Shown here: positions 27,780-42,853 of the stretch, in pieces | Layout: every line of letters starts with the position of its first letter | Position numbering within the stretch: the stretch's first letter is position 1 | Origin: Methyloversatilis discipulorum | Lineage (GTDB): Bacteria; Pseudomonadota; Gammaproteobacteria; Burkholderiales; Rhodocyclaceae | Direction: 5' to 3' | Assembly (NCBI RefSeq): GCF_000527135.1 | Contig: NZ_AZUP01000001.1 | Span: 1,984,001-2,048,000 of the forward strand | DNA: 64,000 bases | Translations under genes and position numbers: made by a program | The notes under the pieces: generated by a model | Told to the model about the DNA's origin: nothing | Database searches by the model: none | Seen by the model: only the letters and a program-made list of their open reading frames with translations

Positions 27780-28349
27780 TCAGCGACGCCGACGCACCGC
27801 CGCGCCGAGCAAGCCCATGCCGGCCAGCATCATGGCCCAGCCTTCAGGCTCGGGCACCGCGGCAGCCAGCGTCAGGGTGACCGGGCCGGTGGCGTTGGCG
27901 ATGTCGAGCACGAAGTCGGTCTGGCTGCCGTCGAGGAACCAGTCGCCGAGCGCGGCTTCGACGTATTCCGGGCCGCTGAAGGTGATGCGTGCGCTGTCGT
28001 GGCTGCCGGTGACGGTGGCGACCGAGCCGAAGGTGCCGCCGGCGCTGCCGAGGGTGTTGAACAGGCCGCCGGATATTGTCAGCGTCAGGCTTTCGAAGCC
28101 CAGACCGATGTAATTGCGGACGATGGCGTTGAACGGCAGCATCGGCAGGTCGCTGTCGTCGCGCGTCAGCGTGAACGTGACCGGCAGCGTATTGATCAGG
28201 CCGAAGTCGATGGACAGCATGTCCGGCGTGCTGAAGCTGGTGTCCACGATGTTGCCGTTGGCAGCGACGACGTCGAGCGTGTAAGCGTGGGCGGCCGGGG
28301 CGAGTGCGAAGGCGCACAGCGCGGCGGCGAGGGTGTGGCGGATATTCAT
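27780..28349 (-). CDS. PEP-CTERM sorting-domain protein of unknown function
   Basis: This 189-residue secreted protein has a Sec signal peptide ending in AHA at about residue 21, then a beta-rich body with no recognised family. It ends with the PEP-CTERM tag VPEPEGWAMMLAGMGLLGAAVRRRR: the PEP triad, a hydrophobic helix and an Arg cluster. Such tails are cut by exosortase and anchor or release proteins in EPS-forming Gram-negatives. It is separated from the PhoX gene by an inverted-repeat-bounded segment. Confidence 0.88.
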   Translation of the reverse strand: MNIRHTLAAALCAFALAPAAHAYTLDVVAANGNIVDTSFSTPDMLSIDFGLINTLPVTFTLTRDDSDLPMLPFNAIVRNYIGLGFESLTLTISGGLFNTLGSAGGTFGSVATVTGSHDSARITFSGPEYVEAALGDWFLDGSQTDFVLDIANATGPVTLTLAAAVPEPEGWAMMLAGMGLLGAAVRRRR

Positions 28350-28373: not shown

Positions 28374-28612
28374 AACCTGAAAACCTCAGTTGATCGGCGT
28401 CGTGGGTGCGGTTGGCGGGGTGTACGGCAAGGCGCGAGGACGCGGCAGGATGGCTCCCTGCAAGGACGAGCAACGCGGCCGGGCGCCCCGCCGGCCGTGC
28501 ACGCGACGTCGAAGCGGTCTCACCCGGAGGGTGCGCAACGCAAACTGACAAATCTCCTTGATGGGCAGAGCTCTCGACTTCATGGCAAGCGGTCAACTGA
28601 GGTTTTCAGGTT
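28374..28612. repeat. segment bounded by perfect 20-bp inverted repeats (MITE-like)
   Basis: AACCTGAAAACCTCAGTTGA at 28374-28393 returns as its exact complement at 28593-28612, enclosing 199 bp. The right repeat touches the PhoX stop codon. No clear target-site duplication is visible outside the arms. Inside, a 65-codon frame on the minus strand (28583-28386), beginning MKSRALPIKEICQF and Arg-rich, ends within the left arm; it has no convincing ribosome site. No transposase is present. This accounts for the whole 262-bp gap. Confidence 0.6.
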
Positions 28613-30258
28613 CAGAGATTGCCCTTGGCCCACGGGCCGGTGATGGCCACGGTGATGCCCGGCGTCTGCATGTTCACGAACAGCACGCGGCCGGTCGGGT
28701 CGAAGCAGGCGCCGCAGAATTCGTAGTTGCGATAGTCGGCCGCGGCCACGGTCTTGCCGGCGGCGGCGATCTGGTCGGCGGCGAGGTTCACGTTGTTCTT
28801 GCAGAAGATGTAGGCCTCGCCGGCCGGGTTCAGGCCGAGCAGGCGGTTGCCGGTGCCGTAGGCGTCGGTGGTGCCACCGCCGTCTTCGCACAGCAGCACG
28901 CCGCCGCGCGGGCTGACGGTGACGTTGTCCGGGTTGTTGCCGGCGGTCTGGTTGCCGCTGACGAAGATGGCGCGCAGGCGCATGGTGGCCAGTGTCAGTT
29001 CCCACACCGCACCCTCGCCCTGGCCGACGCGCGCGCGGCTGTCGGTGCCAGCGGCGGTATCGACGATGAACATCCTGCCGGCGGAATACCAGATGCCTTC
29101 GCCGCGGCTCATGCGGGCGCCGCCCTGGCTGATGGCCTGATGGGTGGGGCCGGACATGAAGGCGAGGCTGACGCCGCCGGGCTGGCCGGCGACGACCACC
29201 GGGTCGGCGTCGGGGTTGGCGATGTCCACCCACTCCAGTTCGTATTCGTCGCCGATGTCGGGGTTCAGCAGGCCCTGGTCGTTGGCCTGGGCCAGCGTGG
29301 CGGGCGCAGCCTTGCGCACGATGGTCTTGATGCGCGCCGCCTGCAGCTTGCCGCCGTTGTGCAGGCTGCCCAGTTCGCCCGAGGTGTCGGCCGGCACGTA
29401 GCGGAAGAAGGCCGCTACGTTGCGGTTGTCTTCGGTTTCGTAGACGTAGCCGGTGGTCGGGTCGACCGCCACTGCCTCGTGCACGAAACGGCCCATGCCG
29501 ATGATGGGGTCGGCGATCGAGTCACCGGCGTCGGCGTCGACTTCGAACACATAGCCGTGCTTCTTGCCGCCGATGCCGGAGAAATCGTAGATGGTTTCTT
29601 CGCAGGTGAGCCAGGTACCCCAGGGCGTCGGGCCGCCGGCGCAGTTGCCCAGCGTGCCGCCGATCGAACCGGTGGCGCCGGCCCAAGCGGCGTCGCGGAA
29701 AAGCAGGTTGGTGGTGCCGCCGGCCGGATAGCCGACGAAGGGCGCCGGTGCGGCGGCCGACGGGTCGGTCACGATGCCGCCGGCACCGATGCGGATGGGC
29801 AGGCTGCCGTAATACACGGTGATGATGCCGTTCACCGGCTGGGTGGCGTAGCTGCGCGGCGCCTGGATGGCTTCGGCCGGCGTGGCGACCAGACCGCGCT
29901 CGTGGTTGCGCACCAGCACCAGTTCGGTGCTGCGGCCGGCGCGGCGCGAGGTAACCACGGCCATGCCGTCGTGATTGCCGGGCGTCGGGTTGCCGTCGCT
30001 CATGCTGTCGCCGGTCCAGCCGAAGCTGCGGTAGCTGAAGCCCGGCGGCAGTTGCAGCAGCGGCAGGCCGGTGCTTGCGTCCTTGACCGGCGCCAGCGCG
30101 CCGTAGGGCGACAGGGCGGACACCGTCTGCTTGCCGGTGGCGGCCAGCGCGTTCTGCGCATACAGCGCGCCCATCAGGCCGGTGAAGCGGGTGGCGGCCA
30201 GCGCGCCGGAGCCCTGGAGCAGGCGGCGACGGCTGGGCGAGGTACAGGACGAGGACAT
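28612..30258 (-). CDS. PhoX-family (DUF839) phosphatase, Tat exported
   Basis: A 548-residue protein. It begins with a twin-arginine signal, SRRRLLQ followed by an Ala-rich hydrophobic run. The body fits PhoX/DUF839: NHDGMAVV, LVRNHERG, GGTTNLLF, WGTWLTCEE, GRFVHEAVAVDP, YETEDNR, SRGEGIWY, DNVTVSPRGGVLLCEDGG and CGACFDPTGRVLFVNMQTPG. Family members are Ca/Fe alkaline phosphatases made under phosphate limitation, though the DUF839 group also contains enzymes of unknown substrate. Start at 30258 with GGAG upstream. It is divergent from a CCA-like HD gene, and a partial PhoB-box candidate lies between them. Confidence 0.88.
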   Translation of the reverse strand: MSSSCTSPSRRRLLQGSGALAATRFTGLMGALYAQNALAATGKQTVSALSPYGALAPVKDASTGLPLLQLPPGFSYRSFGWTGDSMSDGNPTPGNHDGMAVVTSRRAGRSTELVLVRNHERGLVATPAEAIQAPRSYATQPVNGIITVYYGSLPIRIGAGGIVTDPSAAAPAPFVGYPAGGTTNLLFRDAAWAGATGSIGGTLGNCAGGPTPWGTWLTCEETIYDFSGIGGKKHGYVFEVDADAGDSIADPIIGMGRFVHEAVAVDPTTGYVYETEDNRNVAAFFRYVPADTSGELGSLHNGGKLQAARIKTIVRKAAPATLAQANDQGLLNPDIGDEYELEWVDIANPDADPVVVAGQPGGVSLAFMSGPTHQAISQGGARMSRGEGIWYSAGRMFIVDTAAGTDSRARVGQGEGAVWELTLATMRLRAIFVSGNQTAGNNPDNVTVSPRGGVLLCEDGGGTTDAYGTGNRLLGLNPAGEAYIFCKNNVNLAADQIAAAGKTVAAADYRNYEFCGACFDPTGRVLFVNMQTPGITVAITGPWAKGNL

Positions 30259-30304
30259 TCGGGACTCCGGGCGCGGTAGCGAGATTCTCATCATCGATGC
30301 GGCG

Positions 30305-30322
30305 GGTGTCGACTGCATGACG
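30305..30322 (-). promoter_or_regulatory. weak PhoB-box candidate upstream of the PhoX gene
   Basis: On the minus strand CCGTCAT-GCAG-TCGACAC has one good PhoB heptamer and a second matching 4 of 7 positions, spaced 11 bp, 47 bp before the PhoX start. Alone it is weak; it gains weight from the better box at 33618-33635. Confidence 0.3.
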
Positions 30323-30452
30323 GTGTCGGCGCCGCAACGTGGTCCGAACGGGCCATCGGTCGCGGCGGGCGGCGAAAGGTCGGGGCATCGACGATGCACT
30401 GCGCCGCGACGGCGCCAGAATGCGCACCGGACACCCCACGAAGACGACATTC

Positions 30453-32272: not shown

Positions 32273-33514
32273 TCAGCTGCGGTAGTCCGCGTTGATCTTC
32301 ACGTAGTCGTAGCTGAAGTCGCAGGTCCAGCAGGTGGCGCGGGCGTCGCCGCGGCCGAGTGCCACGCGTATCGTGATCTCGGCCGGCGCCATCGCGGCCG
32401 CGCCCTGCTCTTCCTTGTAGTCCGGGTTGCGACCTCCGTCCTTCGACACCAGGAAGTCACCGATCCACAGGCTCACTTTCGAAGTATCGAGATCGGCCAG
32501 CGACGGGTGCGTCTGCGCGGCGTTGCCGACCGCAGCCAAGATGCGGCCGAGGTTGGGGTCGGAGGCGAAGAAGGCGGTCTTGACCAGCGGCGAATGGGCG
32601 ATCGCGTAGCCGACCGCCTTGCACTCGGGCACGTCGCGGCCGCCTTCGATTTCGATGGTGATGAACTTGGTCGCACCCTCGCCGTCGCGCACGATGGCCT
32701 GCGCCAGCTCGGCCGCCAGCGAGGTGACCGCGTCGGCCAGCGCGCGGCCGTCGGCGCTGTCGAGCGAAGTGATTTCGGCATTGCCGGCGGTGCCGGAGGC
32801 GATGAGCATGAAGGAGTCGTTGGTCGAGGTGTCGCCATCCACCGTGACGCAGTTGAACGAGCGGTCGGCGGCGTGTTTCACCATGTCTTCCAGTGCGGCC
32901 TGCGACACCGCCGCGTCGGTGGCGATGAAGCCGAGCATGGTGGCCATGTTCGGCTTGATCATGCCCGCGCCCTTGCTGATGCCGGTAATGGTGATCCGGC
33001 GGCCGTCGATCGTGAGCGTGCGCGAGCCGGCCTTGGCGATGGTGTCGGTGGTCATGATGGCGTGCGCCGCCTCGTACCAGTTAGCCTCGTCGAGATCGTC
33101 CATGCTGGCCGGGATGCCGCGCTCGATGCGGTCCACCGGCAGCGGCTCCATGATTACGCCGGTCGAGAAGGGCAGCACTTGTTCCGGCGCCAGTTCGAGC
33201 GCGCGGGCCACCGCCACGCAGGTGGCGTGCGCGGCGACCAGACCCGGTTCGCCGGTGCCGGCATTGGCGATGCCGGTGTTGATGACCAGCGCGCGGATGT
33301 CGCTGCGCGACAGATGGTCGCGGCACACCTGCACCGGTGCGGCACAGAAGCGGTTCACCGTGAACACGCCGGCCACGCGCGCGCCGGGCAGCAGCGAAAT
33401 CAGGCACAGGTCGCGGCGGTTGGCCTTGCGGATGCCGGCCTGGGCGATGCCCAGACGGACGCCGGCGACCGGCAGGATGGTTTCGGCGGGGGGCGTCTGG
33501 TAGTTCACGGGCAT
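32273..33514 (-). CDS. argJ: bifunctional ornithine acetyltransferase / N-acetylglutamate synthase ArgJ
   Basis: ArgJ, 413 residues, transfers acetyl from N-acetylornithine to glutamate and can also acetylate glutamate from acetyl-CoA in arginine synthesis. It is made as a proenzyme that cuts itself before the Thr in [10 protein letters not shown] (Thr at about residue 192), which then becomes the nucleophile. Other signatures: [42 protein letters not shown] and the ending [11 protein letters not shown]. Length is normal. A clear start at 33514; the following UPF0149 gene is 5 bp away. Confidence 0.97.
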
Positions 33515-33830
33515 GGCAGGCTCGGTTCGCGGGAGGTAAAGCGCGGAGTTTACATGCAGGCCGCGACGGTTGCCGGACCGTGCACAGGGTCCGCGGCGTA
33601 ACACGAAGCAACGCATTCCGTCACACGACCGTCATCTGCCGCGCGCACGAGTGATGGCGGCACGAAGGTTCGGGCACACCCCGCCCGACACGCAAGCCCC
33701 GGCGTGGCGCGGATCTGCCGCCGGCATGCGCCGAACGGCTCACCCACCCTTCATTGCATTGAAAAGACCGCTCCCTATGGTCGGCGCGTTCCCGGCACTC
33801 CGCCGGCATGAAACCTGTGGGAGACACGAC
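33515..33830. other. 316-bp regulatory gap between argJ and the phosphatase operon
   Basis: This is a divergent intergenic region with no gene. It contains the PhoB-box candidate described separately, and a GGCACGAAGGTTCG element at 33659-33672 that resembles a sigma-54 site but has CG instead of GC at -12. A GGGAG ribosome site precedes the ATG at 33831. Confidence 0.6.
33618..33635 (+). promoter_or_regulatory. PhoB box upstream of the phosphatase operon
   Basis: CCGTCAC-ACGA-CCGTCAT is a direct repeat of two heptamers at 11-bp spacing, matching the E. coli CTGTCAT-N4-CTGTCAC consensus except for C in place of T at the second position of each. The last base of each half varies between C and T, as is allowed. 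It lies 196 bp before the first gene; no strong -10 follows at the expected distance, which weakens the call. Confidence 0.6.
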
Positions 33831-35174
33831 ATGAACGCACGCACGCAACTCACGCTGGTGCTGGCGGTGGCAGCCGCCTTTGCCGCCACTTCGGCCAACG
33901 CCGCCCAGAACACGCTGTCCGGCTGGGCCGTGATGCCGGCCAACACCTTCGCCGACGGCCCGACCTCGGGCCAGTTCGCCGGCGCCGGTGCCGGTGGCAA
34001 TCCGCTGCCGCTGGTCGACATGCAACCGGTGCAGGGCTTTTCCGGCGTGCTGGCCGGCGCCAACGGCAGCTTCCGTGTGATCACCGACAACGGCTTCGGC
34101 GCACAGGGCAATTCGGCCGACACGCTGCTGCGCAGCTATGCGGTGAATGTCGATTTCCGCACCGCGCTGGGTGGCAGCGGCACCGTGTCCGCCGCCAACT
34201 GGACGACCGGCGCCTCGCTGCCCGCTTTCAACGCGGCCAGTCGCATCACGCTGAGCGACCCGAAGAACCTGCTGAGCATCAAGGTGCAGGCCGACTACAC
34301 GCACTACTACAACAACGCCGCCAACCCGCTGGTCGATCCGTCGATCAAGGCAGGCCGTCTGCTCACCGGTGCCGACCTCGACGTCGAGTCGGTGCGCCAG
34401 GACAAGAACGGCAATCTGTGGTTCGGCGACGAGTTCGGCCCCTACCTGGTCAAGACCGACGCCAACGGCGTGGTGCAGCGTCGCGAAATCGCGCTGCCCG
34501 GCGTGTTCGCGCCGCAGCACGAAGCGGTGCTGAACGGTTCGGTCACCAGCAACCTCGGCGGCTCAGGCGGCTTCGAAGGCATGGCCATCAACGCCAGCGG
34601 CGACAAGCTCTACACCCTGCTCGAAAAGACTGTGGCCGGTGACCCGGCGAAGAGCCTGCGCATCAATGAATTCAGCATCGACAGCGAAAGCTATACCGGC
34701 CTCGACTACCTGTACCAGCTCGAAGCCGAAGGCACCGCCATCGGCGACATGACGGCGATCGACGACCACCGCTTCCTGGTGATCGAGCGCAACGGCGGTA
34801 CCGCCACCAGCGGCACGCCGTTCAAGAAGATCTTCATCGCCGACACCACCGATGTCGCCGACGGCGGCTTCGTCACCAAGACCGAACTGGTCGACCTGAT
34901 GAACATCGCCGACCCGGACGACCTGAACGGCGACGGCCTCACCAGCTTCACCTTCCCCTACGTGACCATCGAGGACGTGCTCATCCTCGACGCCAACACG
35001 CTGCTGGTGATCAACGACAACAACTACCCCGGCACCGGCGGTCGCGACTTCGGTTCCGACCACACCGAGTTCCTGAAGATCAGCCTGGCCAACCCGGTTC
35101 CGGAGCCCGAGACCTACGCGCTGATGCTGGCCGGCCTCGGCCTGATCGGCTTCGCCGCAAAGCGCCGCCGCTGA
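33831..35174 (+). CDS. phytase-like esterase with PEP-CTERM tail
   Basis: This 447-residue secreted protein has a Sec signal peptide ending in ANA (about residue 24), then a beta-propeller of the esterase-like phytase family (PF13449): VLAGANGSFRVITDNGFG, LDVESVRQDKNGNLWFGDEFGPY, GGFEGMAIN, FLVIERNG, and ending VLVINDNNYPG. Relatives hydrolyse phytate or phosphate esters, or are unproven. It closes with VPEPETYALMLAGLGLIGF and a Lys/Arg cluster, a textbook PEP-CTERM tag. It is the first gene of the six-gene run downstream of the PhoB box. Confidence 0.9.
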   Translation: MNARTQLTLVLAVAAAFAATSANAAQNTLSGWAVMPANTFADGPTSGQFAGAGAGGNPLPLVDMQPVQGFSGVLAGANGSFRVITDNGFGAQGNSADTLLRSYAVNVDFRTALGGSGTVSAANWTTGASLPAFNAASRITLSDPKNLLSIKVQADYTHYYNNAANPLVDPSIKAGRLLTGADLDVESVRQDKNGNLWFGDEFGPYLVKTDANGVVQRREIALPGVFAPQHEAVLNGSVTSNLGGSGGFEGMAINASGDKLYTLLEKTVAGDPAKSLRINEFSIDSESYTGLDYLYQLEAEGTAIGDMTAIDDHRFLVIERNGGTATSGTPFKKIFIADTTDVADGGFVTKTELVDLMNIADPDDLNGDGLTSFTFPYVTIEDVLILDANTLLVINDNNYPGTGGRDFGSDHTEFLKISLANPVPEPETYALMLAGLGLIGFAAKRRR

Positions 35175-35183
35175 TCCTTCGCG

Positions 35184-35207
35184 CCGGCCCCGCAGCAGCG
35201 GGGCCGG
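35184..35207 (+). terminator. strong hairpin between the two phytase-like genes
   Basis: CCGGCCCCGC-AGCA-GCGGGGCCGG is a perfect 10-bp stem with a 4-base loop. It is followed by TTCGTC rather than a T-run, so it may be a partial terminator or an mRNA-stabilising structure that sets the ratio of the first gene to the rest. Confidence 0.55.
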
Positions 35208-35232
35208 TTCGTCACGCCTGCCGGACTCCATC

Positions 35233-36408
35233 ATGAAGAAACTGCTTCTGGCCACCGCTGTGGCCCTCTCGTTCGGCGCCGCACAGGCAGCCGACTTCTC
35301 TTTGCGCGTGATCGGCGCGACCTCGCTGCCCACTGGGGCGCTGTTCCAGGGCGTCGAATTCGGCGGCATCTCCGGCCTCGATCGCGCCGCCGACGGCAGC
35401 TACTGGGCGATTGCCGATGACCGCGGTGGCGAGCGCGGCACGCCGCGCTTCTACAACCTGTCGCTGGACTACGACGCCGCGGGCTTCAACGGCGTCACCG
35501 TCAACAGTCAGACGTATATGCAGCGCCCGGACGGCACGACCTTCCCGTCGAACGCCCGCACGGTGGACCCGGAGGGCATCCGCGTTGCGCCGAACGGCAA
35601 TCTGTACTGGTCCTCCGAAGGCAACTGGAACGCGAACGCCGCCAGCCGCTATCAGCCCTTCGTCCGCGAAATGACGACCTCGGGCGTGTTCGTGCGCGAA
35701 TTCGCCACGCCCGCCATGTACAACTACGTCGACAACGCGACCACCGGCGGGCGCAACAACAAACTGTTCGAAGCGCTGACGGTCACGCCGAACGGCACGA
35801 TTTACACCGCCAACGAAGACGCGCTGGTGCAGGACGGCCCGCTCACGTCGATCAGCAACGGCAGCGTGGTACGCCTGACCGCGCTCGACCCGGTGAGCGG
35901 CGCGGCCGGTGCGCAGTACGCCTACGAGCTGCCGCCGATTCCGGTCGACGCGGTGCCGGGCGCGCCCTTCGGCCCGGACAACGGCCTGCCCGAACTGCTG
36001 GCGATCTCCGACACGCAGTTCATCGCGATCGAGCGCGCCTTCGCCTTCGGCGTCGGCAACACCATCCGCCTGACGCTGGCCGAAATCACCGCCGACACCA
36101 CCGACGTGAGCAGCTTCGCCAGCCTGACCGGCGCCGACTACACGCCGATGCGCCGCACGCTGCTGCTGGAGATGCCGATCACCTTTGACGGCATCACGCT
36201 GGACAACATCGAAGGCGTGAGCTGGGGCAAGACGCTGGCCAACGGCAACCGCACGCTGGTGCTGGTCGCCGACAACAACTTCAGCGCCACGCAGAGCACG
36301 CAGTTCATCGCCATCGAAGTGAGCGCCGTCCCCGAACCCGAACAGTACGCGCAACTGCTGGCCGGCCTCGGCCTGCTGGCCTTCGCGCGTCGTGCCGCCC
36401 GTCGCTGA
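35233..36408 (+). CDS. second phytase-like esterase with PEP-CTERM tail
   Basis: This 391-residue secreted propeller has a signal peptide ending in AQA (about residue 19) and the esterase-like phytase pattern: FGGISGLDRAADGSYWAIADDRG, VDPEGIRVAPNGNLYWSSEG, LFEALTVTPNGTIYTANED, LLAISDTQFIAIERAF, DNIEGVSWG and LVLVADNNFSATQSTQF. It ends VPEPEQYAQLLAGLGLLAF with an Arg-rich tail. It is a diverged paralogue of its neighbour. Start 35233 follows a weak ribosome site (CCGGACTCCATC). Confidence 0.9.
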   Translation: MKKLLLATAVALSFGAAQAADFSLRVIGATSLPTGALFQGVEFGGISGLDRAADGSYWAIADDRGGERGTPRFYNLSLDYDAAGFNGVTVNSQTYMQRPDGTTFPSNARTVDPEGIRVAPNGNLYWSSEGNWNANAASRYQPFVREMTTSGVFVREFATPAMYNYVDNATTGGRNNKLFEALTVTPNGTIYTANEDALVQDGPLTSISNGSVVRLTALDPVSGAAGAQYAYELPPIPVDAVPGAPFGPDNGLPELLAISDTQFIAIERAFAFGVGNTIRLTLAEITADTTDVSSFASLTGADYTPMRRTLLLEMPITFDGITLDNIEGVSWGKTLANGNRTLVLVADNNFSATQSTQFIAIEVSAVPEPEQYAQLLAGLGLLAFARRAARR

Positions 36409-36426
36409 ACCGTCCAGGAGAGTCCG

Positions 36427-37851
36427 ATGAAAGCCACGCTGAAACCGCTCGCCGCCGCACTGCTGCTGGCCACCGCCGCCAGCGCCGCGCAGGCCGAAAC
36501 CGTCCGCTTCGCCACCTTCAATGCATCGCTGAACCGCGACGCCTCGGGCCAGCTGCTGTCCGACCTCGCCAATCCGCTGGCTGGCGGCGTCAGCACCACG
36601 GTCGCCAACCGCATCCAGCAGGCGCACAACGTGGCGGAGATCATCCAGCGCGTGAATGCCGACGTGCTGCTGGTGAATGAATTCGACTTCGATCTGAACG
36701 GCACGCCGACCGCCAGCAGCGCCGCGATGGGCCTGGGCTATTCCAGCAATGCGGCAAAGCTGTTCCAGGACAACTTCCTGTCCGCCGGTCACGGCAACGC
36801 AGTGCGCGGCATGACCTCGGGCATCGACTACGCGTATCGCTACACGCCCAATACCAACACCGGTCTGGCGTCGGGCTTCGACCTGAACAACAACGGCGTG
36901 GTGGCCGGCGGCGACGATGCCTACGGCTTCGGCAACTTCGGCGGGCAGTACGGCTTCACCATCTATTCGAAGTACGAGATCGTCAGCGTGCGCAGCTTCC
37001 AGACCTTTCTGTGGAAGGACATGCCGGGCAATCTGCTGACCAACGACCCGACCGGAAGCAAGCTCACCGACTTCTACTCGCAGCCCGAAATCGACGCGCT
37101 GCGCCTGTCGTCGAAGAACCACGTCGATGTGACGGTGCGCATCAACGGTCAGGACGTGCACTTCCTGACCGCCCACCCGACGCCGCCCACCTTCGACGGC
37201 GCCGAGGACCGCAATGGCAAGCGCAATCACGACGAAATCCGCTTCTGGGCCGACTATGTCGCCGGCGCCGATTACATCTACGACGACCAGGGCAACACCG
37301 GCGGTCTCGAAGCCGGCGCGAAGTTCGTCATTGCCGGCGACTACAACGCCGACCCCTTCGACGGCGACAGCTTCAAGGGCACGGTCAATGGCGAGCAGTA
37401 CAACGCCATCGGTCAGCTGCTGGACAACCCGCTGATCAATACCTCGGCCACGCCGTCGTCCGACGGCGGCACGGCGGCAGCCGACTACCCGAGCAACAAC
37501 GGCAGCGCCAATCAGAGCCACGTCGGCGATCCGGCGCAGGACACGGCCGACTTCAGCGATGCCGCGCCCGGCAATCTGCGCGTCGATTACGTGCTGCCGT
37601 CGGCGAATCTGGACATCGAGGGCGGCGGCATCTACTGGCCGGTCGATCCGGACACCTCGGCGGCGAACAACACCGGCGACGCGTTCGATCTGGTCGGCAC
37701 CTTCGGCAATCCGGGTCTGTATGGCGGCCTGCCCAGTTCCGACCACAAGGCGGTCTGGGTCGACGTGCAGGTGGTGCCCGAACCCGAACAGTACGCGCTG
37801 CTGCTGGCCGGTCTCGGCCTGATCGGCGCCGCTGCGCGCCGTCGTCGCTGA
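36427..37851 (+). CDS. endonuclease/exonuclease/phosphatase-fold protein with PEP-CTERM tail
   Basis: This 474-residue secreted protein has a DNase I-like fold. After a signal peptide ending in AQA (about residue 23) come RFATFNASLNRD (first strand), VLLVNEFDFDL (metal Glu), HFLTAHPTPP, FVIAGDYNADPFDGDS (GDxN motif) and SSDHKAVWVDV (SDH motif), so the catalytic set looks complete. Likely substrates are extracellular DNA or phosphate esters. The tail VPEPEQYALLLAGLGLIGA plus Arg is a PEP-CTERM tag, identical over 44 bp of DNA to that of the gene at 40571. AGGAG precedes the start. Confidence 0.9.
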   Translation: MKATLKPLAAALLLATAASAAQAETVRFATFNASLNRDASGQLLSDLANPLAGGVSTTVANRIQQAHNVAEIIQRVNADVLLVNEFDFDLNGTPTASSAAMGLGYSSNAAKLFQDNFLSAGHGNAVRGMTSGIDYAYRYTPNTNTGLASGFDLNNNGVVAGGDDAYGFGNFGGQYGFTIYSKYEIVSVRSFQTFLWKDMPGNLLTNDPTGSKLTDFYSQPEIDALRLSSKNHVDVTVRINGQDVHFLTAHPTPPTFDGAEDRNGKRNHDEIRFWADYVAGADYIYDDQGNTGGLEAGAKFVIAGDYNADPFDGDSFKGTVNGEQYNAIGQLLDNPLINTSATPSSDGGTAAADYPSNNGSANQSHVGDPAQDTADFSDAAPGNLRVDYVLPSANLDIEGGGIYWPVDPDTSAANNTGDAFDLVGTFGNPGLYGGLPSSDHKAVWVDVQVVPEPEQYALLLAGLGLIGAAARRRR

Positions 37852-37898
37852 AGCACAGCGCTGTCACGAATCACAACCCACCCTACAGAGGTCAGATC

Positions 37899-38618
37899 AT
37901 GAACATGCAGAAACTGCTCGCCGCCACGCTGCTGTGCTTCACCGGCCTGTCCGCCCACGCGGCCAGCGTCGAGGCCATCCAGAACGCCACCGTCCAGCCG
38001 GGCGGCGTGCGCACCGGTGGCAGCGGCATCAACTTCTTCAACGTCGAAGGCGCCGACTACGGCAGCTTCGCCTCCTACGGCGTGGCGCGCTTCGACATCG
38101 CGTCGCTGAAGGCACAGTTCGACACGCAATATGGCATCAATGGCTGGGTGATCGACAGCATCAGCCTGTCGCTGACGCAGTCGAACGCCGCCTTCACCGC
38201 CGACGGTGCGGTCGATGTCTACTTCACCGGCAACGATGCTGTCAGCATCGTATCGCCGAGCCCGCTGCAGTACCCGTTCGCCGGCGACTTCGCCGATGCG
38301 CAGCAGGTGCTCAGCTATGAATTCGTGCAGGTGTCCAGCGGCACGGTCGAGACCTATACGCTGTTCGATCGCGCCGCCGGCAACAACGCCGGCGCGCAGG
38401 CGCTGGCCGCCGACATCCTGGCCGATTCGCGGGTGACGCTGGCGCTGGTCGATGGCGACGGTGGCGTGGCCGCGACCTATGCCGGCTACAACAACAACAC
38501 CTATGCCGGCCCCACGCTGAACATCGAAGTGAGCGCCGTCCCCGAAGCCGACAGCTGGGCCATGTTGATCGCCGGCCTGGGCCTGCTGTCGTTCGCCGTG
38601 CGCCGCAAGGCCGCCTGA
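37899..38618 (+). CDS. PEP-CTERM-type protein of unknown function
   Basis: This 239-residue secreted protein has a signal peptide ending in AHA (about residue 20) and a beta-rich body with no recognised family; GVARFDIASLKAQFDTQYG suggests a carbohydrate-binding-like or DNRLRE-type sandwich, but this is uncertain. The tail is VPEADSWAMLIAGLGLLSF then RRKAA: the third residue of the PEP triad is Ala, a less common variant. AGAGGTCAG upstream serves as ribosome site. It is the fourth gene of the operon. Confidence 0.85.
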   Translation: MNMQKLLAATLLCFTGLSAHAASVEAIQNATVQPGGVRTGGSGINFFNVEGADYGSFASYGVARFDIASLKAQFDTQYGINGWVIDSISLSLTQSNAAFTADGAVDVYFTGNDAVSIVSPSPLQYPFAGDFADAQQVLSYEFVQVSSGTVETYTLFDRAAGNNAGAQALAADILADSRVTLALVDGDGGVAATYAGYNNNTYAGPTLNIEVSAVPEADSWAMLIAGLGLLSFAVRRKAA

Positions 38619-38645
38619 GCCCGACCCAATTCCCGGAGAAACACC

Positions 38646-40541
38646 ATGCGCCTCAAACTTCTCGCGCTGGCCGTCGCCGGCGTTGTCAGCCAGTCTGCCC
38701 TCGCCTGCACGCCCGGCACCCACAGCGCAAACGTGCTGTTCGGCAGCACCGATGCCGGCGTACCCGACCGCGTGCTGGACGCCAGCTGCGCCACCATCGA
38801 CAGCCAGATCCGCGACGAGGACCCGTGGGGCAATCAGGCCGCCTTCATCGCTCACGTGTCGTCGGTGACGCTGGCGCAGCAGAAGGCCGGCAAGATCAGT
38901 GCGGTCGAACGCGCCCGCCTGCTGATCGCCGCACGCAACTCGCAGATCGGCACCACGCTGAAGGTGAAGCTGATCGCCTTCAACGATTTCCACGGCTACA
39001 TCAAGCCCTTCGAAGGTTCTAGCAGCAACCCGGGCGTCACCCGCTTCTCGACCCGCATCAAGGAACTGAAGGCGCAGAACCCGCTGCACGCCGTGGTGTC
39101 GGCCGGCGACATGATCGGTGCCAGCCCGCTGACCTCGGCGCTGTTCAAGGACGAGCCGACGATCGAGGCGATGAACCGCATCGGCATCGACTTCAATGCG
39201 GTCGGCAACCACGAGTTCGACGAAGGCAAGGACGAACTGCTGCGCATGCAGCACGGCGGCAATCACCCGACAGACGCCTACTCCGGCCTCGGCATGAACG
39301 AGGATCTGAAGGGCGGCGAATTCGCCGGCGCGAAATTCCGCTTCCTCGCCGCCAACGTGCATGACACCGCCACCGGCACGACCGTGTTCCCCGGCTACGG
39401 CGTGAAGGACTTCCTCGGCAACAAGGTGGCCTTCATCGGCATGACGCTGGAAGGCACGCCGACCATCGTGTCGCCGTCCGGCGTGGCCGGCCTGCAGTTC
39501 AAGGACGAGGCCGACACCGTCAATGCGCTGATCCCGAAACTGAAGGCGCAGGGCATCGAGTCCATCGTCGTGCTGATCCACGAAGGCGGCTTCGCGTCCG
39601 GCGGCATCAATGGCTGCAGCGGCGTGTCCGGCCCCATCGTCGACATCGTCAACCGGCTCGACCCCGAGGTCGATCTGGTGGTGTCCGGCCACACCCATGC
39701 CGCCTACAACTGCCTGATCAACAACAGCGCCGGCCAGCCGGTGCGCGTCACGTCGGGTGGCCAGTACGCGCGCAACCTGACCGACATCGATCTGACCATC
39801 GACACCCGCTCGCGCGACGTGATCGCGGTGGCCGCCAACAACCTGGTCACCGGCACCGCGACCGAGGAAGACGCGGCGCTGACCGATCTGGTCGCCCACT
39901 ACGACGCGCTGTCGGTCGGCCCGAAGTCGCGCGTGATCGGCAGGATCACCGCCGCCATCAGCCGCTCGCAGAACGCGGCCGGCGAGTCGGCTCTCGGCGA
40001 CGTGATCGCCGACGCCCAGCTCGACGCCACCGACGATGCGGGCACCGGTCAGGCCGTCGTCACCTTCATGAACCCGGGCGGCATCCGTGCCGACCTGCCG
40101 TTCAACGCCCCGAACGGCGACGTGACCTACGGCGACGCCTTCACGGTGCAGCCCTTCGGCAACTCGCTGGTGACGATGACGCTGAGCGGCGCCCAGATCC
40201 GCACGCTGCTGGAAACGCAGTTCAACGGCTGCAACGGCCAGACCGCGACCCGCATCCTGCAGGTGTCGCAGGGCTTCAGCTACGCCTACAGCGCCGGCAA
40301 CGCCTGCAACGCGCGCGTCACGTCGATGACGCTGGACGGCGTGGCGGTCGATCCGTCGGCCAGCTACCGGGTGACGGTGAACAGCTTCCTCGCCGACGGC
40401 GGCGACGGCTTCGCCGTACTGAAGGACGGCACGCAGCGCCTCGGCGGTGCGGTCGATACCGACGCCTTCGAAGCCTATCTGCAGGCCAACCCGACCGGCG
40501 TCGCGCCGGGCCCGCAGAACCGCATCATCAAGAATGACTGA
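38646..40541 (+). CDS. secreted 5'-nucleotidase / UshA-like metallophosphatase
   Basis: This 631-residue protein has a Sec signal peptide (ALA, about residue 20). Residues about 21-105 are an extra N-terminal region not found in UshA. The metallophosphatase domain follows: AFNDFHGYIKPF at about 111-122, SAGDMIGASP, VGNHEFDEG and VSGHTHAAYN. The C-terminal nucleotidase domain has FMNPGGIRADL and VNSFLADGGDGF, the substrate-binding loop. All metal motifs are present. It would release phosphate from nucleotides outside the cell. Unlike the other five genes of the run, it has no PEP-CTERM tail. CCGGAG precedes the start. Confidence 0.93.
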   Translation: MRLKLLALAVAGVVSQSALACTPGTHSANVLFGSTDAGVPDRVLDASCATIDSQIRDEDPWGNQAAFIAHVSSVTLAQQKAGKISAVERARLLIAARNSQIGTTLKVKLIAFNDFHGYIKPFEGSSSNPGVTRFSTRIKELKAQNPLHAVVSAGDMIGASPLTSALFKDEPTIEAMNRIGIDFNAVGNHEFDEGKDELLRMQHGGNHPTDAYSGLGMNEDLKGGEFAGAKFRFLAANVHDTATGTTVFPGYGVKDFLGNKVAFIGMTLEGTPTIVSPSGVAGLQFKDEADTVNALIPKLKAQGIESIVVLIHEGGFASGGINGCSGVSGPIVDIVNRLDPEVDLVVSGHTHAAYNCLINNSAGQPVRVTSGGQYARNLTDIDLTIDTRSRDVIAVAANNLVTGTATEEDAALTDLVAHYDALSVGPKSRVIGRITAAISRSQNAAGESALGDVIADAQLDATDDAGTGQAVVTFMNPGGIRADLPFNAPNGDVTYGDAFTVQPFGNSLVTMTLSGAQIRTLLETQFNGCNGQTATRILQVSQGFSYAYSAGNACNARVTSMTLDGVAVDPSASYRVTVNSFLADGGDGFAVLKDGTQRLGGAVDTDAFEAYLQANPTGVAPGPQNRIIKND

Positions 40542-40570
40542 CGCCCGCACCTGATTCCGGAGAACACAGA

Positions 40571-41371
40571 ATGAACCTGATCAAGACCACGCTGGCGCTC
40601 GCGCTGGCTTCCTTGGGCCTGAATGCGCAGGCAGCCCATTTCAGCCTGATTTCGGGCAGCGTCAGCGGCTCGACCAACACCAACATCAACGAGCTTGCCG
40701 CATCGTGGAACTTCGGCGGCACCTTGGATGACCTGTCGGGAAGCGGCTATCTGCTTGGCGTCGGCGGTGGGGAAAGCCTCGCCGGCAGCGTGTCCAACGT
40801 GTGGAGTCAGTCGCTTCTGCTTGACGCCGCGTCTGACCCGTCGAACGTACTCATTCAGGGCAGCCGCAGCATGTCGCTCGACGCGATTCAGCCTGTCATG
40901 GTGAATTCAGGAAGCGACACGATGTACTCCCAGATGCTGGCTGCGCTGCGCATCGAAAGTGACGGCGAAGCCGACGGAAGCGCGGTACGGGTCTCGTTCT
41001 CGGGCACCTTCGACAATATCTTTTCGAGCGCTCTAACTACCATCTCGCCGCCGTCCTTCCTTTCGCTGATCGTGCGTGGCGACGGCAACAGCACGATCGC
41101 GGAGTATGAGGTCGCGACCTTCGACAGCGAGGTCTTCAGCTTTTCGTTCGACAGCACGATTGGCACCGAACTGCGTCTGGATATTGGCTTCGGCTCATCT
41201 ACCAGCATCGGGATGAGCATGGCTCCGACCGGGCCGGGAAACCTGATCGAATCGACGGCGCTGGTCAGCGGTGCGTTGTCGGTCACGCCAGTACCCGAAC
41301 CGGAACAGTACGCGCTGCTGCTGGCCGGTCTCGGCCTGATCGGCGCAGCCGCCCGCCGCCGTCGCGGCTGA
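40571..41371 (+). CDS. PEP-CTERM sorting-domain protein of unknown function
   Basis: This 266-residue secreted protein has a signal peptide ending in AQA (about residue 17) and a Ser/Thr/Gly-rich beta body without a known family. It ends with VPEPEQYALLLAGLGLIGAA and an Arg cluster. The body uses more A/T-ending codons than the neighbours, while the tail DNA is 44 bp identical to that of the gene at 36427, which hints that the body was acquired and the tag is shared by recombination. CCGGAG precedes the start; last gene of the operon, convergent with the HDOD gene. Confidence 0.87.
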   Translation: MNLIKTTLALALASLGLNAQAAHFSLISGSVSGSTNTNINELAASWNFGGTLDDLSGSGYLLGVGGGESLAGSVSNVWSQSLLLDAASDPSNVLIQGSRSMSLDAIQPVMVNSGSDTMYSQMLAALRIESDGEADGSAVRVSFSGTFDNIFSSALTTISPPSFLSLIVRGDGNSTIAEYEVATFDSEVFSFSFDSTIGTELRLDIGFGSSTSIGMSMAPTGPGNLIESTALVSGALSVTPVPEPEQYALLLAGLGLIGAAARRRRG

Positions 41372-41398
41372 GATGCGACAGTCGCCGCGCCCCGCGCC

Positions 41399-42853
41399 TC
41401 AGGCGCGCCGCGGCGCGGCGGCGGCGTCGAGCGCCAGACCCGCCAGTTGCGCCAGGTGCAGCAGCGCGTCCTGGGTACCGGCCGGAAACGGCGGTCGCGA
41501 CGGCGCGCGATCGATGTAGAGCACGCCGACCACCTGGTTCTGCGCGTGCAGCGGCACCAGTATCTGGTGCCGCTCACCCAGTGCCGCGCGCAGGCGGGCC
41601 ACCGAGGGCAGTCCGGGAGCGGGCACGTGGTCGGCATCGATATCGATGACGCGGCCGTGGTCGACCAGTTCGGTCAGCGCGTCGCGCGGCGCACCGGCGA
41701 GCAGGAAGGTGAAATGGCGCATCAGCTGCTGCGCGCCGTGACCTTCGGTTGCGCGTGCAGCCAGTTGCGCGCGGTTGGGCGCCACCAGCGCGAGTACCGC
41801 GCGGTCGGCGCCCAGCGCACGGCCGGCGCCTTCCAGCGCCAGATCGAGCACCGCGGTGCTGGCCGAACGGGCCGCCATCAATGCGGTCATGCGTCGCGCG
41901 ACATCCAGTTGCAGCAGCGGATCGGCTTCGGCGCCGTCGCCGCCCTCGGCCGGTGCGACGCCGGATCCAGGCGTCGGCTGCGGAATGCGCGCCGCAGCGT
42001 CCTCGCAACCATAGAAAGCGGCGATACGGGCCGCCTCGCGCGCGTGCGCGGCAACCACCGGTGTGACGGTGGCGATGTCCTGCCGCAGCACCTTCGCGTA
42101 ATCGCGCATTGCGACGCGCGCACGTTCGGAATCCCATCCGCCTTCGGCAGCAACCGCCAAGCGATAGCCTGCAACGACAAGCGCTTCACGGCTGTCCAGC
42201 CGCACACCGTCAGCACAGGCATTCACCACCAGTCCGGGCAGTGCCCATTCGCGCGCCAGCTTCTGCGTCAGCGTGCGCAGACGGAAGCCGAGCACTTCCA
42301 TCTCGACCTGCTCGGGCTGCGCCTTGCTCTGGCGCAGCGCCTTGTCGAGCTTCTGCCCCACTTCGCCGGAAAAGCACCAGAACGCCATCTCGCCGATGTG
42401 CGACAGCAGCGTCGCGATGAACACTTCCTCGGGCGACGCGTCACCGCGCGCGGACGCGGCGTGCCGGGCGTGCACCGCGGCGTGGAAGCAGCGCGCCATC
42501 TCGGCCGCCACGCGCTCGCGTACGCCGCCGGCGAGAAAGGCGTCGATCAGCGCGACCGACACCGCGATATTGCGCACCGTGTCGAAGCCGAGCACGACGA
42601 TGGCGCGCGAAATCGTGCTGACGCGCTGGCTTTCGCCACGGAAGAAAACGGAATTGGCCATCCGCAGCACGCGCGCGGTCATGCCGGCGTCGCGCAGGAT
42701 GATGGTGCCGAGCGCGGAAGTCGGACTTGCCTCGTCGCCCGCGACCTCACCGATGGCGGCGAGGGTGGCGCTGAAGATGGGCATGTCCTGGCTGCGCAGG
42801 CGGTCCACCCAGGTTTCGAGCGGATCGGATGCGGTGGCGGTGGGTACGCTCAT
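41399..42853 (-). CDS. HDOD-domain protein with C-terminal GAF domain
   Basis: This 484-residue cytoplasmic signalling protein has an HDOD domain at about 15-215, with ILRDAGMTARVLRMANSVFF, ISRAIVVLGFDTVRNIAVSVAL and a degenerate HD at FIATLLSHIGEMAFWCF, where SHIGE replaces HDIGK, as is usual in HDOD proteins that lack catalysis. A GAF-like domain follows at about 325-475 (DRAVLALVAPNRAQLAARAT, HQILVPLHAQNQVVGVLYID). The role is probably in a regulatory complex; the ligand is unknown. A short GC hairpin spans its stop codon at 41393-41407. Confidence 0.9.
   Translation of the reverse strand: MSVPTATASDPLETWVDRLRSQDMPIFSATLAAIGEVAGDEASPTSALGTIILRDAGMTARVLRMANSVFFRGESQRVSTISRAIVVLGFDTVRNIAVSVALIDAFLAGGVRERVAAEMARCFHAAVHARHAASARGDASPEEVFIATLLSHIGEMAFWCFSGEVGQKLDKALRQSKAQPEQVEMEVLGFRLRTLTQKLAREWALPGLVVNACADGVRLDSREALVVAGYRLAVAAEGGWDSERARVAMRDYAKVLRQDIATVTPVVAAHAREAARIAAFYGCEDAAARIPQPTPGSGVAPAEGGDGAEADPLLQLDVARRMTALMAARSASTAVLDLALEGAGRALGADRAVLALVAPNRAQLAARATEGHGAQQLMRHFTFLLAGAPRDALTELVDHGRVIDIDADHVPAPGLPSVARLRAALGERHQILVPLHAQNQVVGVLYIDRAPSRPPFPAGTQDALLHLAQLAGLALDAAAAPRRA

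Follow-up and report, generated by a model that had tools for sequence, protein, structure and literature searches.

How are genes for secreted, PEP-CTERM-tagged proteins controlled, and what could these proteins do outside the cell? Both questions are raised by a run of six co-directional genes, g1 to g6, in Methyloversatilis. The run lies in a stretch of 64,000 nucleotides (the window; G000:C1:1984001-2048000 in the 4,306,529-base chromosome of genome G000). We read it as one operon of the Pho regulon, encoding a PhoB-induced and exosortase-sorted set of organophosphate hydrolases, and put the probability of this reading at about three in four. The reading is based on a position-conserved PhoB-type promoter, on phytase, GDPD and PhoD domains in fused relatives of the encoded proteins, on PEP-CTERM-tagged GDPD proteins in the corresponding island of a sister species and on a nearby gene for the alkaline phosphatase PhoX.

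All six genes are located on the + strand, and the gaps between them amount to 58, 18, 44, 27 and 29 bp in the list of open reading frames (ORFs) of the window. No terminator-like site is listed on this strand within 33400-41700. The products of g1 (33831..35174) and g2 (35233..36408) are secreted, phytase-like proteins of family PF13449 (183.1 and 263.5 bits) with a PEP-CTERM tag (PF07589), which is weak in g2 (36.5 and 23.4 bits). For g1 the listed ORF begins further upstream; position 33831 is the ATG picked in an earlier note on this DNA. The g3 protein (36427..37851; tag 31.2 bits) belongs to the EEP (DNase I-fold) family of nucleases and phosphodiesterases. Its PF03372 match of 77.8 bits, above cut-off, spans residues 36-440, and it is 96% identical to a protein of a metagenome-assembled genome of M. 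discipulorum. The EEP fold spans several substrates. In g4 (37896..38618) and g6 (40571..41371) the tag is the sole domain found with Pfam. A search with g4 gave 133 matches, and among the 120 matches listed most were without a name; g6 varies fast between species. The g5 protein (38646..40541) is a member of the 5'-nucleotidase family with PF00149 and PF02872, and its alignment with the solved 5'-nucleotidase 2z1a covers GNHEFD and the GIRA stretch. It is no UshA equivalog by NCBIfam NF007109 (160.3 bits, cut-off 600 bits). PF07589 was detected above cut-off in five of the six proteins (g1, g2, g3, g4 and g6). Since g5 carries no tag, it would be at most co-expressed with the others, not co-sorted. 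Genome-wide, 67 PEP-CTERM matches and two EpsH-type exosortases above cut-off were counted.

The earlier note had described six rightward genes with gaps of 18-58 bp, mostly PEP-CTERM tagged, for two phytase-like proteins, a DNase I-fold enzyme, a 5'-nucleotidase and two PEP-CTERM proteins of unknown kind; the ORF list and Pfam agree with it on all of these points. The term phytase-like holds for membership in PF13449 and not for the phytase family PF02333. Besides PF13449, Pfam gave for g1 and g2 the tag and sub-threshold propeller-type matches, and no PF02333 domain. For this reason g1 and g2 should not be named phytases, and this classification was rejected; the word "phytase" for PF13449 proteins stems from the family name and from fused neighbours. 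Phytate as a substrate, DNA as the target of the EEP enzyme and an association with EPS, all put forward in the earlier note, are possible.

For the control of the run, the region upstream of g1 was compared within the genus (13 Methyloversatilis genomes, G000 included). The gene names argJ, HDOD-like, dxs, amt and gdh used here were assigned by eye from translations. An alignment of the region from argJ to the first gene in 11 genomes revealed an element conserved some 60 bp upstream of that gene. In the window this proximal element consists of the PhoB-type box CCTTCAT-TGCA-TTGAAAA (33748..33765, + strand) and, exactly 10 bp after it, the putative -10 element TATGGT (33776..33781, + strand). 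The second half-site of the box is degenerate here and strong in some sister species. With the sites of G006 and G012, which were added to the alignment by homology, the element occupies the corresponding position in all 13 genomes. It shares its layout with the pstS, phoB and phoD promoters of the genus, in which a PhoB box is followed after 10 bp by TA/CA-nnCT (CCTTCACATGGGTGTAAC-10-TAAACT for pstS, CTGTCACTAAACCGTCAC-10-TAGACT for phoB and CCGTCATCGACCTGTCAC-10-CACACT for phoD).

A 34-base model was trained on phoB, phoD, pstS and one fatty-acid-hydroxylase-family gene, with the operon excluded; the likeness of the proximal site to pstS was noticed before the model was built. The element was the best + strand site of the island upstream region in 12 of the 13 genomes, and in G000 it came second after the distal box described below. 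Scores of 23.1 (G005, G009), 21.1 (G003), 16.6 (G006), 16.2 (G004, G008, G010) and 13.5 (G011) were obtained, and at the low end 9.3 (G000-G002), 8.6 (G007) and 8.4 (G012). Real pho promoters that were left out of the training reached 16.7-26.3. As controls, 106 further upstream regions of these loci were scored; their best scores had a mean of 2.9, a 95th percentile of 7.4 and a maximum of 12.5. The proximal site lies above all of these controls in eight of the 13 genomes and is weak in G001, G002, G007 and G012. This control is conservative, because its regions may include real pho sites, such as the G001 region before PhoX with 8.2. When pstS was removed from the model, the sites of G003, G005 and G009 still exceeded all 106 controls; one control reached the site of G004, G008 and G010, two that of G006 and five that of G011. 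When the same region was shuffled 150 times, at most 0.02 of the shuffles scored as high in 11 genomes, the value for G000 being that of the distal box.

The distal box is the direct repeat CCGTCAC-ACGA-CCGTCAT (CCGTCACACGACCGTCAT; 33618..33635, + strand), on which the earlier note had based its prediction of PhoB control. This 7-4-7 repeat is an exact match to the genome-wide pattern CNGTCAYNNNNCNGTCAY, for which 8 matches at 7 places were found in the 4.3 Mb genome (none for the reversed pattern) and 72 across the 13 genomes, versus 7 for the reversed control. Elsewhere in G000 the pattern ends 53 bp short of the phoB ORF, stands upstream of phoD (PF09423), occurs as a tandem pair upstream of a GT4 glycosyltransferase gene and lies at the beginning of a gene with a HATPase_c domain. 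Of the two remaining places, one is inside the dxs-like ORF and one between the amt- and gdh-like ORFs. The distal box scored 12.6 in the 34-base model, and none of the 106 control regions was as high. With the model without pstS, it was reached by none of the 106 controls in G000, by two in G001 and by 14 in G002. It is not placed for a -10 element, the bases at that spacing being CACGAG. In the clade of the window the second proximal half-site is decayed, and the consensus box 130 bp upstream perhaps compensates for it. A pattern match at G006:C33:54879 resembles the distal box and was dropped, as it lies far from the island. At 33580 on the - strand, a PhoB-like site of 14.0 with TAAACT faces argJ and is probably just the argJ promoter.

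Across the genus the island is conserved but modular. The slot before the HDOD-like gene holds co-directional genes of the same kind in all 13 genomes, and argJ forms the other flank in 12; in G012 none was found adjoining. No island lacks homologs of both g1 and g2. Full-length g1 homologs and g3 homologs are each present in 10 of 13 genomes, all six gene types occur together in G000, G002 and G011, and the island of G007 holds g1 alone. In G003, G005 and G009 the first gene is g2-like (43-45% identity) and replaces g1. The G003 island furthermore encodes two PEP-CTERM GDPD proteins (PF03009), and GDPD look-alikes in G004 and G009 were judged by their ends, not by Pfam. Outside the genus, locus L014 (Burkholderiales) combines g3-, g4-, g5- and g6-type genes with a Metallophos-like protein slightly under cut-off; it has a PhoB-type site of 23.4, but this is located at the 3' end of its island. 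At L257 (G152) a GT4 gene is faced by a pair of g2- and g3-type genes; it has three TCA half-sites in tandem plus a fourth, degenerate one, ending 10 bp before TACGCT. A PhoX relative (39%) was also noticed near the g2-g3 relatives of this genome.

More distant relatives were surveyed at the best 80 genome loci by g3 match (classed by record title; 37 cyanobacterial-type, including the 'Gracilibacteria' bin L084, 3 alphaproteobacterial, 28 actinobacterial and 12 others, namely L009-L019 and L087). An in-frame fusion of the g3 homolog with a g2-like domain was found at 34 of the 37 cyanobacterial-type and at all three alphaproteobacterial loci; the 28 actinobacterial and 12 other loci had none. 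Five of these 37 fusions were run through Pfam, and all showed EEP, PF13449 and PF02333, two of them also GDPD and one PhoD. Proteins of 2.1-2.9 thousand residues at L045, L072, L077, L079 and L085 combine EEP, PF13449 and g1-like domains; for L085, the only one among them given to Pfam, phytase, GDPD and DUF4114 domains were also reported. In view of these EEP/PF13449/phytase fusions, the operon looks like an unfused, separately tagged multi-activity phosphohydrolase. Directly upstream of the Beijerinckiaceae fusion L064 stands CCGTCATTGGCGTGTCAC-10-TAGAGC, the top site of its locus with a score of 20.3. Upstream of the actinobacterial g3 homologs, 11-bp TCA repeats were detected in 7 of 28 cases (reversed control 0 of 28). 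RNA sequencing of Nodularia under phosphorus limitation showed two strongly induced products, annotated as 'esterase-like activity of phytase family protein' (log2 5.53/3.82) and 'GDPD (phytase domain)' (log2 4.63/5.45), as listed in Table 1 of the article (PMC9846622); these loci are linked to the operon proteins by annotation name, not by sequence.

For PhoB binding, induction, substrates and sorting destination the following course is predicted. At low phosphate, phospho-PhoB would bind to the direct repeats that precede g1. Lying 10 bp ahead of the -10 element, the proximal site would stand in for a -35 element, and in the clade of the window the distal consensus site may assist it. Upon activation the secreted enzymes would be made and exported by Sec, and exosortase would cut the PEP-CTERM tails of g1-g4 and g6. 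The cleaved proteins may be retained in, or freed from, the envelope or the extracellular matrix; g5 would pass this step untagged. Phosphodiesters, most likely in nucleic acids, would be cleaved by g3 and nucleotides dephosphorylated by g5, and g1 and g2, together with the GDPD proteins of sister species, may hydrolyze other organic phosphates. The released phosphate would be taken up by Pst.

Several observations weigh against this reading. The distal box is present in only 3 of the 13 genomes, namely G000, G001 (CCGTCACACGGCCGTCAT) and G002 (one half-site base changed); of the two half-sites, L011-L013 retain just the first, and in L010 both are missing. As a conserved operator it was therefore rejected. 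Of the claim in the earlier note, the existence of a PhoB-type repeat stands, while a conserved operator in -10 spacing does not. The note had named a lack of conservation upstream of orthologous operons as refuting; this applies to the box at 33618 but, as far as position is concerned, not to the promoter site at 33748. The second half-site of the proximal box is poor in the clade of the window. With the model without pstS the proximal site falls to 3.4 in G000-G002 and to 2.3 in G007 and G012, which is within the control range, and in G007 and G012 it does not stand out from the 150 shuffles (fractions of 0.067 and 0.087). The 34-base model also gave a false positive of 22.1 in coding DNA, inside the dxs-like ORF. 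Because the 13 genomes cluster into a few close groups, the conservation comprises fewer independent instances. Furthermore, the gene set is not widespread, since among 399 genomes of the order g3 relatives (E 1e-60) turned up in only 7, the own genome included. Beyond the genus the picture of PhoB-type sites is mixed. At six loci of the order no site of 16 or more precedes g2 or g3 (13.5 in L260, 11.2 in L256, 10.0 in L259), and the scan upstream of L015, L016, L018, L019 and L087 revealed no convincing PhoB-type site; it also covered L017, with no clear result. The same applies to the other two alphaproteobacterial fusions, L080 and L083. Cyanobacterial SphR-type repeats were counted in 9 of 37 cases versus 4 of 37 in the control, which is no clear signal.

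Alternatively, the run could consist of ordinary PEP-CTERM genes under their usual control by RpoN/PrsK-PrsR or under a constitutive promoter, with PhoB-like repeats arising by chance. RpoN-dependent control is documented for the PEP-CTERM protein PepA of Aquincola in the excerpted text of PMC9850573, tagged proteins are numerous in this genome, the box model does give false positives, and in the clade of the window the proximal site has a marginal score. However, no sigma-54 promoter (TGGCAC-N5-TTGCW) with fewer than 3 mismatches in 11 positions was found in the 13 upstream regions. Sigma-54 control was set aside as unsupported, although this test lacks a positive control, because seven other PEP-CTERM loci of G000, used as a yardstick, show no better match either. 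A constitutive promoter is disfavoured, as no sigma-70-type match is listed on the + strand within 33400-41700. Chance repeats would hardly account for a pho-type site at the equivalent place in all 13 genomes, and ordinary control would not account for a gene content of the phosphohydrolase type. We consider this explanation unlikely.

It is also improbable that the operon, under control of PhoB, serves mainly matrix work, so that nuclease and esterases would remodel the extracellular DNA and phospho-polymers of the own biofilm and the gain of phosphate would be secondary. Control of biofilm by Pho is known. PEP-CTERM proteins have been tied to floc formation (PMC9850573, in the excerpted text) and to exopolysaccharide (Haft 2006, as given in the accessible part of a citing paper). 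Release of phosphate rather than cutting of the matrix is nevertheless favoured by the 5'-nucleotidase, the GDPD proteins, the fused phytase and PhoD domains and the nearby PhoX.

An alignment of 22 PF13449 domains, which include four from further Methyloversatilis loci (L009-L011, L013), contains 44 invariant columns, including D62, D63, R64, D112, E114, E129, E267, R268, D324 and E327. These invariant, in part acidic residues and the fusion of PF13449 domains to enzymes of the same theme make it very improbable that the PF13449 and uncharacterised members are binding or structural proteins alongside one real nuclease and one nucleotidase, even though the best match of g2 among solved structures had only E 0.34, the activity of PF13449 is derived from the family name and the expression of relatives, and g4 and g6 have no domain beyond the tag.

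A Pho-regulon operon of this kind can be compared with several known systems. UshA and NucH of Corynebacterium are exoenzymes of the Pho regulon, and ExeM of Shewanella is an example of a nuclease of the GlyGly-CTERM/rhombosortase type. The phoA-nucH genes of Synechocystis, activated by SphR via tandem Pho boxes, likewise place an extracellular nuclease and a phosphatase under control of phosphate starvation; the excerpt of the article describes no PEP-CTERM sorting (PMC1906773), whereas in Methyloversatilis five of six proteins of one operon are tagged. Extracellular nucleases with GlyGly-CTERM also combine secretion with a C-terminal sorting tag, but according to the available part of PMC3237569 tag and processing protease are different. 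PepA of floc formers is a PEP-CTERM protein of a Burkholderiales-type bacterium as well; it differs in its sigma factor RpoN and its role in flocs, as far as the excerpt of PMC9850573 goes. The nearest precedent in kind is ZepA of Anabaena, a Zur-linked PEP-CTERM exoprotein for the acquisition of a scarce nutrient, which in the accessible text of PMC10957091 binds zinc and is linked to Zur, and is not an enzyme set for phosphate. The giant cyanobacterial and alphaproteobacterial phosphohydrolases resemble the operon in uniting g3-type and g2-type domains (the latter 34-39% identical) and, at L064, in a preceding Pho-type box. They differ in being one chain with EEP first and PF13449 following, and in the presence of PF02333, which is missing in the Methyloversatilis operon; here the proteins are separate and tagged, and g2 precedes g3.

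In the accessible text of the open literature (subscription papers and preprints were outside the scope) we found no description of Pho-controlled PEP-CTERM enzymes, in line with the statement of the earlier note that no PEP-CTERM-sorted Pho regulon was known. To our knowledge, an activity or inducing signal is known, or a final location proven, for few PEP-CTERM proteins. In the operon a predicted inducer, phosphate starvation, coincides with predicted assayable activities (nuclease, nucleotidase and phosphodiesterase), so that the effect of exosortase and the destination of the proteins should be traceable by simple enzyme assay of cells, matrix and medium. In betaproteobacteria, the Pho-regulon reading would also connect the scavenging of phosphorus with enzymes associated with the matrix.

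Further genes with a possible link to Pho were identified in the genome. A PhoX alkaline phosphatase of the twin-arginine translocation (TAT) type (28612..30450, - strand; PF05787, 282.1 bits), whose listed ATG is probably too far upstream, is encoded three ORFs from the operon on the opposite strand. Its upstream PhoB-type site is weak (8.2), and it likely shares the physiology of the operon as a separate transcript. Behind it follows a PEP-CTERM companion (27780..28349, - strand), which is 36% identical to a PEP-CTERM-like protein encoded divergently from phoD (L139 2141-2871, G000 about 324140-324870). The latter has a VPEP tail, with a PF07589 match of 14.6 bits under the cut-off of 20.7. 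A PhoB-type site (10.6-13.2) precedes its gene at the same place in five of five genomes scanned, and sites in the region between phoD and this gene face both directions; L214, the phoD locus of G007, was excluded because phoD has a different neighbour there. A third PF13449 gene, also PEP-CTERM-tagged (G000:C1:759434-760705, L264), has a PhoB-type site of 13.7, the -10 element of which ends 38 bp before the start. A stronger site (17.8), at L264 4458, lies upstream of a small ORF whose start resembles a signal peptide.

Phosphate starvation might drive a whole PEP-CTERM sub-regulon, and exosortase might assemble the separate tagged enzymes into a phosphorus-mining machine at the surface or in the matrix, as the giant fusion does in cyanobacteria. 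The proteins g4 and g6 and the companions of PhoX and phoD would then be scaffold or substrate-binding parts. We regard this extension as doubtful.

Some PhoB-type sites were noticed at other loci. The HATPase_c gene at G000:C1:4160487 (L144 3488) has a conserved box at its start, e.g. CTGTCACGATCCGGTCAC in G010, recognised by eye in six genomes; possibly it encodes an undescribed sensor kinase of the Pho response. Three tandem half-sites precede the GT4 glycosyltransferase gene (G000:C1:2684053-2684081, L142), which perhaps contributes to membrane-lipid remodelling under phosphate starvation. In G011, a PhoB-type promoter was found before a fatty-acid-hydroxylase-family gene (PF04116; L216 1586-1628).

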